64,000 nt of DNA from Myxococcaceae bacterium (GTDB taxonomy: Bacteria > Myxococcota > Myxococcia > Myxococcales > UBA5297), in assembly GCA_017500825.1 (NCBI GenBank), contig JAFVYB010000081.1:1-64000 (forward strand), in the 5' to 3' direction. A program made the translations under genes and the position numbers. The first letter of the stretch is position 1; each line of letters starts with the position of its first letter. Under the pieces are notes generated by a model. It searched no databases. It worked only from the letters and a program-made list of their open reading frames with translations, and was not told the DNA's origin. Below are positions 50,899-63,975 of the stretch, in pieces.

Positions 50899-51186
50899 AT
50901 GAACAAGATGCCGCCCGTGAAGAAGTGCGAAGTCGAGAGCTGTTACTTCAACAACGAGCAGAGGTGCCGCGCTGGCGCCATCACCGTCGGCAGTGGGGAG
51001 CCTCGCTGCGAGACCTTCGCTCAGAGCGCCTCGCATTCGCGCGTCGACACCCAGGCAGAGGTCGGCGCCTGTCACGTCACCAGCTGCCGCTACAACGACC
51101 AGATGCTCTGCGAGGCTGCGGGCATCGACGTCGTCGTCCACAAGGATCACGCCGACTGCGAGACCTACGAGCCGCGCCAAAGCTGA
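50899..51186 (+). CDS. Small protein with two DUF1540 modules
   Basis: The 95-residue protein holds two Cys-rich modules of the DUF1540 type: CEVESCYFNNEQRCRAGAI with CETF (residues 10-41), then CHVTSCRYNDQMLCEAAGI with CETY (58-91). Each has four Cys, suggesting metal binding. No function is known for the family. The ATG has a good Shine-Dalgarno (AAGGGAGAAG). Confidence 0.88.
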   Translation: MNKMPPVKKCEVESCYFNNEQRCRAGAITVGSGEPRCETFAQSASHSRVDTQAEVGACHVTSCRYNDQMLCEAAGIDVVVHKDHADCETYEPRQS

Positions 51187-59011: not shown

Positions 59012-59437
59012 TCAGGCCCCGACCCGGGAGAGGACGCCGCCGCGCCCGAGGAAAATTCGCGCGCAGGTGGCGCCGATGGTGACGCCGCAGAGGTCGGCCA
59101 GAAGGTCGCCCGCGCTCGCGTCACGCGATGGAACCGTCGCCTGGTAGAGCTCGTCGGCAAGGCCGCAGAGTCCGCCGAGGGCGATCATGACGGGCAGCGC
59201 GCGCCTGAGTTCGAGGCCGTTTCCCTTGAGAAAAAGCGCCCTGAGCCCCAGCGCGCCGAGGCCGGCGTATTCGAGGAGGTGCGCGAGCTTGTCGGCGTTG
59301 GGAATGGCCATCCACGAGGCGGGGGGCGACAGCCGCGACTGGGAGAGCGACGAGAGCGCGAAGATCATCGCGATGTAGAGCGCCACTGGTCCGACCTGAC
59401 CCGCGATGAGCCCAGCCGACAGACCGCGCTTGTTCAT
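59012..59437 (-). CDS. VanZ-like family membrane protein
   Basis: The 141-residue protein has three to four hydrophobic helices (LIAGQVGPVALYIAMIFAL, HLLEYAGLGALGLRALF, PVMIALGGLCGLADELYQ) and the VanZ-like motifs DKLAHLLEYAGLG and DELYQATVPSRDASAGDLLA. VanZ-like proteins are of unknown general function. The ATG overlaps the miaB stop by 4 bases (ATGA), so the two genes are coupled. The longer frame upstream was dropped. Confidence 0.85.
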   Translation of the reverse strand: MNKRGLSAGLIAGQVGPVALYIAMIFALSSLSQSRLSPPASWMAIPNADKLAHLLEYAGLGALGLRALFLKGNGLELRRALPVMIALGGLCGLADELYQATVPSRDASAGDLLADLCGVTIGATCARIFLGRGGVLSRVGA

Positions 59438-60831
59438 GTGCCGTGACCTCTCTGGGCGCCGAAGAGGGCGTTGGCCGAGGCCGAGGTGATCTCGACCGGC
59501 ACGATCTCGCCGACGCGCGCGCTTCCCTCGAAGTTGACCGTCCTGCTTTCCGGCGTGCGGCCAAAGAGCCTGTCGCCACGCGTCTTGGAAACGCCCTCGA
59601 CCAGGACCTCGACGGCCTGCCCCACCTTGGCCTCGGCGTAGGCGAGCGAGATGTCGCGCGCCACGGCCTGCAGCTTCTCCAATCTGCGCACCTTTTCCTC
59701 GTGCGGCACCCGGCCCCATTCCTCCTCGTGCAGCGCGGCGCTCGTGCCTTCGCGTGGCGAGAAGACGAACGAGTAGATGTTCTCGTAACGGACCTCGCGA
59801 CAGAGGGCGATCGTCTCCTCGAACTCGTCTGCGGTCTCGCCTGGAAAGCCGGCGATGATGTCGGTCGTCAGGGCGATGCCGGGGCGTGCCGCGCGCAGTT
59901 TGGCGACGCGCGAGAGGTAGTCGGCCACGGTGTAACCGCGCCTCATTTTGGCCAGCACGCGATCGCAGCCCGACTGCACCGGCAGGTGGAAGCTCGGCAT
60001 CAGCTTGGGGAGATCGGCAAAGGCCTGGACGAGGTCGTCGCCGAGGTCGTGCGGGTTGCTCGTGGTGAAGCGGACGCGCGCGATGCCATCCACTTCGCAG
60101 ACAGCGCCGAGCAGCGCGGCAAAGGAGCAGCCGCCATCGTAGGAATTGACGTTCTGGCCGATGAGAACCACCTCGCGCACGCCGGCATCGGCCATGGCGC
60201 GCACCTCGGAGAGAACTTCGGCCACTGGACGGCTCAACTCCCGGCCCCGCGTCCGCGGCACGACGCAGTAGGCGCAGCCGTTGTTGCAGCCCTTCATCAC
60301 TGTCACGAGCGCGCTGGCCCGACCGCGCACTGTCTCGGGGTCGGCGCCGGGAAAGGCGTAGCTGTGGCGATCGGTGAAAGAGGTGTCGCAGAGGCGCTCG
60401 CCGTCAAAGGCGCGCCGCACGAGCGCTGGCAGCCGCGGGATGGCATCAGGGCCGAGCACGAGGTTGAGCCACGGCACCTGTCGCAGGAGCGCGTCCTTCT
60501 GGTGTTGGGCCACGCATCCGGCCACGGCCAGGCAGCGACGGCGTCCACCGCGCACGGGTTTGAGCCGTCCGAGGAGCGAAATGACCTTGTGCGACGGCTT
60601 CTCGCGCACCGCGCAGGTGTTGATGAGGGCGAGGTCTGCCTCTTCGAGTGAGTCGGCGCGCGTCATCCCGCTTCGCGTCAAGAGCTCGGCCATGCGCTCC
60701 GAGTCGTATTCGTTCATCTGGCAGCCAAAGGTCTGGATGCAGAAGGTGCGGCCGACGAGCGAATCGCGCGCGCTCTCGGCGGGCGTCTCGGCGGTGGCGA
60801 AGGGGGGGGCGAAATCGGCAGGTGTCGTCAT
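59434..60831 (-). CDS. miaB: tRNA-2-methylthio-N6-dimethylallyladenosine synthase
   Basis: MiaB adds the methylthio group to isopentenyl-adenosine-37 of tRNAs. The 465-residue protein has the three-Cys auxiliary-cluster motif set (FGCQMNEYDSE; NTCAVREKP; AGCVAQ), the radical-SAM motif CNNGCAYCVVPRTRGRE (family usually VPYTRGRE), the core, and a C-terminal TRAM domain (VGQAVEVLVEG, LFGRTPESRTVNF). ATG 60831 was chosen; the longer frame (to 61020) is poor. It is coupled to vanZ. No miaA is in the window. Confidence 0.96.
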   Translation of the reverse strand: MTTPADFAPPFATAETPAESARDSLVGRTFCIQTFGCQMNEYDSERMAELLTRSGMTRADSLEEADLALINTCAVREKPSHKVISLLGRLKPVRGGRRRCLAVAGCVAQHQKDALLRQVPWLNLVLGPDAIPRLPALVRRAFDGERLCDTSFTDRHSYAFPGADPETVRGRASALVTVMKGCNNGCAYCVVPRTRGRELSRPVAEVLSEVRAMADAGVREVVLIGQNVNSYDGGCSFAALLGAVCEVDGIARVRFTTSNPHDLGDDLVQAFADLPKLMPSFHLPVQSGCDRVLAKMRRGYTVADYLSRVAKLRAARPGIALTTDIIAGFPGETADEFEETIALCREVRYENIYSFVFSPREGTSAALHEEEWGRVPHEEKVRRLEKLQAVARDISLAYAEAKVGQAVEVLVEGVSKTRGDRLFGRTPESRTVNFEGSARVGEIVPVEITSASANALFGAQRGHGT

Positions 60832-61033
60832 GGGCGGGCCTCGAACAGGGGAAAGCCCCTCGGCGCAAAAAGGACGCGTCGCGCAAAGTCTCCCCAATGG
60901 AGACCCCGGCACGGGTGGATGCGTGTCGTCCGCGACAGAAGGCGGGCGCCTCGACAGAGAACGGCGTCCGTCATCCCCCGGCCGAGGCGTGGGCGCGGTG
61001 GGCGGCGCGGGAAACAGCATTTTCCGACGCGTT

Positions 61034-61067: not shown

Positions 61068-62474
61068 TCAGACGTAAGCGTCGCGCTCGCCGGCGTTCAC
61101 CCTGTTGATCAGCGCCTGGCTGATGCTTCGCCGCAGGGGGTCCATGGCCGCGATCTTCTCGGCGATGAGCTGTTCACCGCGCGCGCGCGTCTGAGGCGAG
61201 GCGTAGTCGACGAGGTATTCGAGGAAGGTCGACAGGCCGTTGGGATCGCAGTGGCGCTGAATGTCGCCGGGCCGGGCCAGATCCATGAAGTCCTGCCCTG
61301 TGCGCCCCATGCGGTAGCAGCCGGTGCAGAACGAGGGGATGTGCCCCATGGCCATCAGGTCGACGACGATCTCCTCCATCGACCGGTGGTCGCCGATGTG
61401 GAACTGCGCGGCCTGCTCGTCCTCGCGCTCGGTGTAGCCGCCCGGATTGACGCGGCTCATCGCCGAAATCTGCGAGACGCCCAGCTCGATCAGCTCGCGG
61501 CGCAGTTCGGCGCTCTCGCGCGTCGAGAGAATGAGGCCGGTGTAGGGCACGGCGAGGCGGAGGATGGCGACGATCTTGCGGAAGTCGTCGTCGCCAACCG
61601 CGTTGGGCGGACTCGAAGCCATCTGCGAACCGCAGGCGGGCTCGATGCGCGGCATGCTGATGGTGTGCGGCCCGACGCCGAAGCGCGCCTCCAGGTGGTG
61701 GATGTGCTGCATCATGGCGAGCAGCTCGAAGCGCCAGTCGGCCAGACCAAAGAGGGCGCCGATGCCCACGTCGTCGATGCCAGCGGCCATGGCGCGATCC
61801 ATCGCCGTCACGCGGAAGTCGTAGTTGCGCTTGGGACCACCGCGATGGACCTCGGCGTAGACCTTGCGGTCGTAGGTCTCCTGGAAGAGCTGGAAGGTGC
61901 CGATGCGCGCCGCCTTGAGCTCGCGGAACTGCTCGACGCTGAGCGGCGCCACGTTGACGTTGACGCGCCGGATTTCGCCGCCACCGCGCTTCACCGAGTA
62001 AATGGCGTCGATCGAGTCGAGCACGTAGTCGATGCCCTCTCCTGGGTAGCGCTCGCCAGCCACCATCAGCACGCGCTTGTGCCCCTGATCGACGAGCGCC
62101 TCGACCTCGCGAATGATTTCGGCGCGGCTCAGGGCGCGGCGTTCGAGCTCCCGATTGCTCGCGCGGAAGGCGCAGTAGAGGCACTCGTTGTTGCAGAGGT
62201 TGGAGATGTAGAGCGGCGCGAAGAGGACGATGCGCGAGCCGTAGATGCGCTCTTTGACCACTCTCGCGCTCTCGAAGAGCTCGCGGCACAGTTCAGGGTC
62301 GCTGATGGTCGAGAGCGCCGCCGCCTCTTCCAGGGAGACGCCCTTGAGTTCGCGCGCCTTGGCGAGGATGTCGCGCACACGGGCTGGTTCGGCTTGGGCG
62401 CCATCCGCCAGCGCCTGGGCAATCTCGTCGTCGCGGATGAACGCGCCTGTCTGGGCCACATCTGAGTCTGTCAT
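61068..62474 (-). CDS. hydG: [FeFe]-hydrogenase H-cluster maturase HydG
   Basis: HydG is a radical-SAM enzyme that cleaves tyrosine to make the CO and CN ligands of the H-cluster. The 468-residue protein has the SAM-cluster motif C-x3-C-x2-C at Cys94/98/101 (CNNECLYC) and the HydG-specific C-terminal cluster C-x2-C-x22-C (CTGC then 22 residues to the Cys of QRHC), plus YRMGRTGQDFM. These motifs exclude ThiH, its paralogue. Neither hydE, hydF nor a hydrogenase structural gene lies in the window. It stands alone between miaB and glyA. Confidence 0.93.
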   Translation of the reverse strand: MTDSDVAQTGAFIRDDEIAQALADGAQAEPARVRDILAKARELKGVSLEEAAALSTISDPELCRELFESARVVKERIYGSRIVLFAPLYISNLCNNECLYCAFRASNRELERRALSRAEIIREVEALVDQGHKRVLMVAGERYPGEGIDYVLDSIDAIYSVKRGGGEIRRVNVNVAPLSVEQFRELKAARIGTFQLFQETYDRKVYAEVHRGGPKRNYDFRVTAMDRAMAAGIDDVGIGALFGLADWRFELLAMMQHIHHLEARFGVGPHTISMPRIEPACGSQMASSPPNAVGDDDFRKIVAILRLAVPYTGLILSTRESAELRRELIELGVSQISAMSRVNPGGYTEREDEQAAQFHIGDHRSMEEIVVDLMAMGHIPSFCTGCYRMGRTGQDFMDLARPGDIQRHCDPNGLSTFLEYLVDYASPQTRARGEQLIAEKIAAMDPLRRSISQALINRVNAGERDAYV

Positions 62475-62727: not shown

Positions 62728-63975
62728 TCAGCCGCCCGCGTAGAGCGGAAACTGGGCGCACAGCTCGCCAATCCGTCCCCGCACCTTGCCGCGCACGCCC
62801 TCGTCCTCCGGATTTTCGAGGACATCGACGATCCAGCCGCCCACGAGCGCCATCTCGGCCGGACCAAGGCCGCGCGTCGTCAGCGCCGGTGTGCCGAGGC
62901 GGATGCCCGAGGTGACCGTCGGCTTCTCAGGGTCGAACGGGATCATGTTCTTGTTGACCGTGATGCCCGCCCGCCCGAGCGCGTCCTCCGCCGCCTTGCC
63001 ACTGATCGACTTGGCGCGCAGGTCGACGAGCACGAGGTGGTTGTCGGTGCCGCCGGAACAAAGCCTGAGTCCGCGCGCGATAAGCGTCTCGGCGAGCGCC
63101 TGGGCGTTGGCGAGCACGCGGCGCTGGTAATCGACGAACGAGCCATCGAGCGCCTCTTTGAAAGCCACGGCCTTGGCCGCGATCACGTGCTCCAGAGGCC
63201 CACCCTGGATGCCGGGGAAGATCTGGCTGTCGTCCTTCCTGGCCAGATCCGCCTTGCAGAGGATGAGGCCACCGCGCGGCCCGCGCAGCGTCTTGTGCGT
63301 CGTCGAGGTGACGATGTCGGCCAGCGGCACAGGCGAGGGATGCAGACCGGCGGCGACGAGTCCGGCGATGTGCGCCATGTCCACCATCAGCGCCGCGCCC
63401 ACCTCGTCGGCAATCTCGCGGAAGCGGTCGAATTCGATGATCCGTGGATAAGCGCTGGCCCCGGCGACGATGACCTGCGGCCTGTGCTCGCGCGCGAGAA
63501 AGCGCAGCCGCCCGTAGTCGATGCGCTCCGTCTTTGGGTCGAGCCCGTAGTGCGTCACCTCGTAGAGCTTGCCCGAAAAGTTGAATCTGGCGCCGTGCGT
63601 CAGGTGCCCGCCCGAATTGAGGTCGAGCGAGAGCACGCGCGCGCCCGGCGTGACGAGCGCCATGTAGGCGGCCATGTTGGCCTGCGAACCGGAGTGCGGC
63701 TGGACGTTGGCGTGCTCAGCCCCGAAGAGCTTCTTCACGCGCTCGATGGCCAGCGACTCGGCGCGGTCCACCTCTTCGCAGCCGCCGTAGTAGCGTTTGG
63801 CCGGGTAGCCCTCGGCGTATTTGTTGGTCAGCGTCGACCCGAGCGCTTCGAGAACGGCCCTGGAGACGAAATTCTCGCTGGCGATGAGTTCCAGCCCCTC
63901 CTCCTGGCGCCGCGTCTCGCGGGCGATGATGTCGAAGATGTCGGGATCGATGGCTTGCAGAGCGGTTGGGCGCAT
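62728..63975 (-). CDS. glyA: Serine hydroxymethyltransferase
   Basis: GlyA interconverts serine and glycine with tetrahydrofolate and PLP. The 415-residue protein has the usual length and motifs: [37 protein letters not shown], the PLP lysine in [15 protein letters not shown], and HSGSQAN. The ATG follows GGTCCCCC; the window ends about 25 bases upstream, so its promoter is not seen. hydG follows on the same strand after 253 bases without a clear terminator. Confidence 0.97.

Follow-up and report, generated by a model that had tools for sequence, protein, structure and literature searches.

Detached hydG of a Myxococcales draft genome and its likely hydrogenase partners

The question raised by this locus is why a gene for HydG, the radical SAM maturase of the [FeFe]-hydrogenase H-cluster, stands by itself between miaB and glyA. 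The first-pass annotation offered two answers, either the use of an [FeFe]-hydrogenase in an anaerobic life with the partner genes located elsewhere, or a repurposed enzyme, and it held that finding hydA, hydE and hydF in the genome would make the gene ordinary. The window, by which the whole analysed stretch of 64,000 nucleotides is meant, is part of contig C46 (79,586 bases) of the draft genome G000, which comprises 2.916 Mb in 125 contigs and is 89.08% complete with a contamination of 0.23%. The comparison included the two other drafts of the genus, G001 and G002 (the three genus drafts are 89-96% complete), and the family mates G003 and G004.

The hydG gene and its neighbours

The genes concerned are the following:
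59434-61020, minus strand: miaB, tRNA methylthiotransferase, downstream of hydG (TIGR01574, 436.5 bits, cut-off 355.3)
61068-62474, minus strand: hydG, [FeFe]-hydrogenase H-cluster radical SAM maturase of 468 aa (TIGR03955, motifs, match to 4wcx)
62728-63975, minus strand: glyA, serine hydroxymethyltransferase (SHMT), 253 bp upstream of hydG (NF000586, 621.2 bits, cut-off 335)

The described position between miaB and glyA was borne out, as both neighbours were verified by profile and all three genes lie on the minus strand. In the profile search of the window ORFs, the HydG protein matched the NCBIfam family TIGR03955 (rSAM_HydG) with 542.8 bits against a cut-off of 312.15. With the ThiH model TIGR02351 it reached 299.7 bits, which is under that model's own cut-off of 380, and the TIGR03955 score is 243 bits higher. 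A pattern scan located the radical SAM motif CX3CX2C, as CNNECLYC from residue 94, and the C-terminal cluster motif CX2CX22C from residue 383, the latter as described for HydG in excerpts from PMC9431212. The earlier statement that the maturase has all its cluster motifs is thus correct, both being intact. The best solved-structure match, 4wcx, spans residues 5-467, and the GC contents at the three codon positions (0.67, 0.43 and 0.89) resemble those of the coding neighbours. As judged from its sequence, the window gene encodes an intact, canonical HydG. The protein is homologous over almost its whole length to HydG of the HydEFG systems (TIGR03955; structures 4wcx and 4rtb) and has the two iron-sulphur motifs in common with it; its genome likewise holds the partner set, whereas the gene differs in adjoining glyA and miaB, apart from hydE and hydF.

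Besides the hydG locus, the profile search of the 79,586 bases of C46 gave no match over cut-off for HydE, HydF or HydA; the sole match to the HydE model was HydG itself, below the cut-off. The arrangement that marks a HydEFG gene cluster, with hydG close to hydE and/or hydF, is therefore not present on this contig. In G001 and G002, the 19-kb stretches around hydG gave no MiaB match, and the adjacency of miaB and hydG is probably unrelated in function. Elsewhere in the window, positions 50899-51186 (plus strand) encode a small protein of 95 aa in which two stretches match DUF1540.

Partner genes in the same genome and the proposed role

The genes for which a genome-wide search had been proposed, hydA, hydE and hydF, are all present on other contigs of G000. 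HydE is encoded on contig C78 (303.4 bits, cut-off 254.6) and HydF on C21 (544.2 bits, cut-off 325.55). There are two hydrogenases: an [FeFe]-hydrogenase catalytic subunit on C118, assigned to group A6 by NF040763 with a score barely over the cut-off (766.7 bits, cut-off 765), and a monomeric group B enzyme on C47 (TIGR04105, 507.5 bits, cut-off 450). The suggested use of [FeFe]-hydrogenase with the partners elsewhere is thereby supported, and the description of hydG as an orphan holds for contig C46, where HydE, HydF and HydA over cut-off are lacking, but not for the genome, where all are present. Because HydE, HydF and two hydrogenases are encoded, the gene is ordinary by the measure that the first-pass annotation itself had set.

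On C118, genes for a NuoE-like and a NuoF-like protein are followed in a row by HydA, an order shared with the trimeric HydABC-type (group A6) [FeFe]-hydrogenases, although the NuoE-like and NuoF-like proteins fall short of the respective model cut-offs. Trimers of this type often bifurcate electrons. Numerous hydG loci from other phyla and from other Myxococcota have the maturases close by, whereas in G000 they lie apart from C118. The hydrogenases were checked with patterns for the HydA loops: the C118 HydA carries TSCCPAW and MPCTAK according to the pattern scan, with GGVMEAAL of the third loop seen by eye, and the C47 group B protein left the three patterns unmatched, with TSCCPAY and SCPGGC seen by eye. 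The glycine-cleavage genes gcvH and gcvT, whose products the in vitro maturation pathway employs (PMC11736057, excerpts), were both found in G000. An association of ammonia-lyase genes with nearby hyd genes is also reported in that paper. As this draft is fragmented (125 contigs, 89% complete), the location of the hyd genes on separate contigs does not give their true distances.

HydG is almost certainly an ordinary H-cluster maturase that serves the two [FeFe]-hydrogenases encoded elsewhere, the maturation genes being scattered, and a gene set that is complete but dispersed explains why hydG is found alone. From the gene set and the motifs, it is most likely that HydG is active and that HydG, HydE, HydF and the hydrogenases work jointly. 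According to the chemistry described in excerpts from PMC9431212, HydG would cleave tyrosine by radical SAM chemistry and would use its C-terminal cluster to assemble an Fe(CO)2(CN) unit. HydE and HydF would convert this unit into the [2Fe] part of the H-cluster, which would then be inserted into the HydABC-type group A6 and the monomeric group B enzymes. The gene would stand alone because the maturation genes have been scattered in a small-genome, apparently fermentative lineage.

Gene order in other genomes and alternative readings

In G001 and G002 alike, hydF and HydABC-type genes are present and hydG is detached. Within these drafts, HydE over cut-off and gcvT were not found in G002 (89% complete), and the group B hydrogenase was not found in G001. 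The gcvH match of G001 (G001:C77:43-411), which lies near a contig end, contains one in-frame TGA. In the family, hydG is apart from its partners in all four drafts that have it (G000, G001, G002 and G004); the fifth draft, G003, gave no HydG match. G004 has hydF, hydE and the HydABC-type genes together on a contig separate from that of hydG (C102 and C193), and its HydG is only 48% identical. A HydG tree of 49 rows, two of them identical, was constructed from the window, 10 genome loci and 38 loci chosen from 80. In this tree, G000, G001 and G002 form one starred clade and G004 falls into another starred clade with three other Myxococcota, its branch being very long and the bootstrap not settled.

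The survey of the hydG neighbourhood drew on named genomes, in which 198 stretches encode hydG; the best 80 were retained, and 35 of these extend 9.9 kb or more to each side of the gene, two being from the genus itself and 33 from outside it. From these best 80 of 198, matches to HydE, HydF or HydA occur in the flanks of 27 of the 33 loci, and no partner match within 10 kb was found in six, which is an upper figure, since the queries were G000 proteins and divergent partners could be missed. Among 195 Myxococcota genomes searched at an E-value of 1e-60 or better, HydG is present in 11, each time over cut-off, and in all seven Myxococcota loci outside the family hydE and/or hydF lie within 1.5 kb of hydG. 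In Clostridium autoethanogenum the locus numbers of HydE, HydG and HydF are far apart (PMC9431212, excerpt with Table 3). In C. thermocellum, as reported in excerpts from PMC4355364, deletion of hydG lowered H2 15-fold, additional deletion of the [NiFe] ech genes made H2 undetectable, and the authors concluded that the loss of hydG abolishes all [FeFe]-hydrogenase activity. Given the detached genes in other genomes and these two reports, detachment is neither unknown nor a sign of a new function; the separate location of hydG is mildly unusual.

A further reading concerns the gene upstream, namely that glyA and hydG form a functional unit in which SHMT provides one-carbon units for the dithiomethylamine bridge. 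All three genus drafts have glyA upstream of hydG in the same orientation, and in two of them the genes are adjacent, the gap being 253 bp (G000) and about 260 bp (G002). Moreover, a defined in vitro system for H-cluster maturation, described in excerpts from PMC11736057, includes SHMT together with the T- and H-proteins. However, the three genomes belong to one genus and are not independent, so that they count as one observation; in G001 a distance of 7.6 kb, occupied by further genes, separates glyA from hydG, and G004, from the same family, lacks a glyA within about 9 kb of hydG. Among the 33 outside loci with flanks of 9.9 kb or more on either side, taken from the best 80 of 198, GlyA was matched in only one (L099). 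The glyA-hydG spacer also aligns weakly, with a mean column identity of 61% over 417 columns in three rows, gene ends included. Patterns of sigma-70 promoters and intrinsic terminators were not found around glyA-hydG, which is little informative in a GC-rich genome, and a thin literature search returned no report of a natural glyA-hydG gene link. The functional unit is thus unlikely, and the narrower proposal that hydG was placed beside glyA or under its control on account of SHMT supplying the glycine-cleavage route that leads to the dithiomethylamine bridge is a little more doubtful still; if true, the link would lend genomic support to a route described in vitro. The position of glyA beside hydG is probably chance synteny.

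In G001 (L039, G001:C158:13000-32000), a GC-poor cassette of three enzyme genes, encoding a Cys/Met-metabolism PLP enzyme, a PALP-family enzyme and a methyltransferase, lies between glyA and hydG, together with two further genes of ordinary GC. Its two borders (L039 1201-1351 and 4406-4556) are formed by the 3' end of glyA, which is intact, and by a 151-bp repeat of this end with 86% identity, an arrangement resembling the integration of an island at this end of glyA. Such an island would fit a formerly closer glyA-hydG pair.

That the window contig or the contigs of the partners entered the bin as contamination, with an accidental co-occurrence of hydG and its partners, is very improbable. 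The draft is indeed fragmented into 125 contigs, but its listed contamination is 0.23%, G001 and G002 carry close relatives of the proteins (80 and 71% for HydG, 72 and 66% for HydF, 84 and 78% for HydA), and hydG is detached in both of these drafts too. Weakest of all, and hardly tenable, is a HydG repurposed to another reaction, as a ThiH-like or NosL-like radical SAM enzyme serving no hydrogenase: the location apart from the hyd genes and the relatedness to ThiH (299.7 bits) and NosL would fit it, but HydE, HydF and two hydrogenases are encoded in G000, the HydG model scores 243 bits above a ThiH match that is itself below cut-off, and the C-terminal cluster motif CX2CX22C is preserved. This option of the first-pass annotation found no support and was rejected, as the partners are present in the genome.

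Traits suggesting anaerobic life in the genus

Haem-copper oxidase, cytochrome bd and [NiFe]-hydrogenase gave no match in any of the three genus drafts (89-96% complete), whereas all three models are matched over cut-off in both G003 and G004, the family mates. Pyruvate:ferredoxin oxidoreductase (PFOR) scores over the family cut-off in G000 and G001, and in G002 it is present as four consecutive pieces on one contig, each under the cut-off. The PFOR of G000 (C88:551-4080) is read in two overlapping frames, which cover profile positions 1-1011 and 1011-1166 and are compatible with a frameshift in the draft or with a real split. The three parallel absences, of two oxidase families and of [NiFe]-hydrogenase, suggest, short of proof, strict anaerobiosis, and the gene content suggests that the genus is a small-genome branch of the Myxococcales composed of strict anaerobes. 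The anaerobic life proposed earlier for the window genome is likewise suggested by the presence of PFOR and by the lack of matches to either oxidase family in its 89% complete draft. The genus is not named in the titles and abstract openings of the papers retrieved on Myxococcota with regard to [FeFe]-hydrogenase, anaerobiosis or the termite gut. A modest side result is an apparent Myxococcales branch that has [FeFe]-hydrogenases and is without the two oxidase families searched. One member of the genus was binned from the metagenome Hm464, and an excerpt from PMC10684969 attributes another Hm464 bin to the termite Hodotermes mossambicus.
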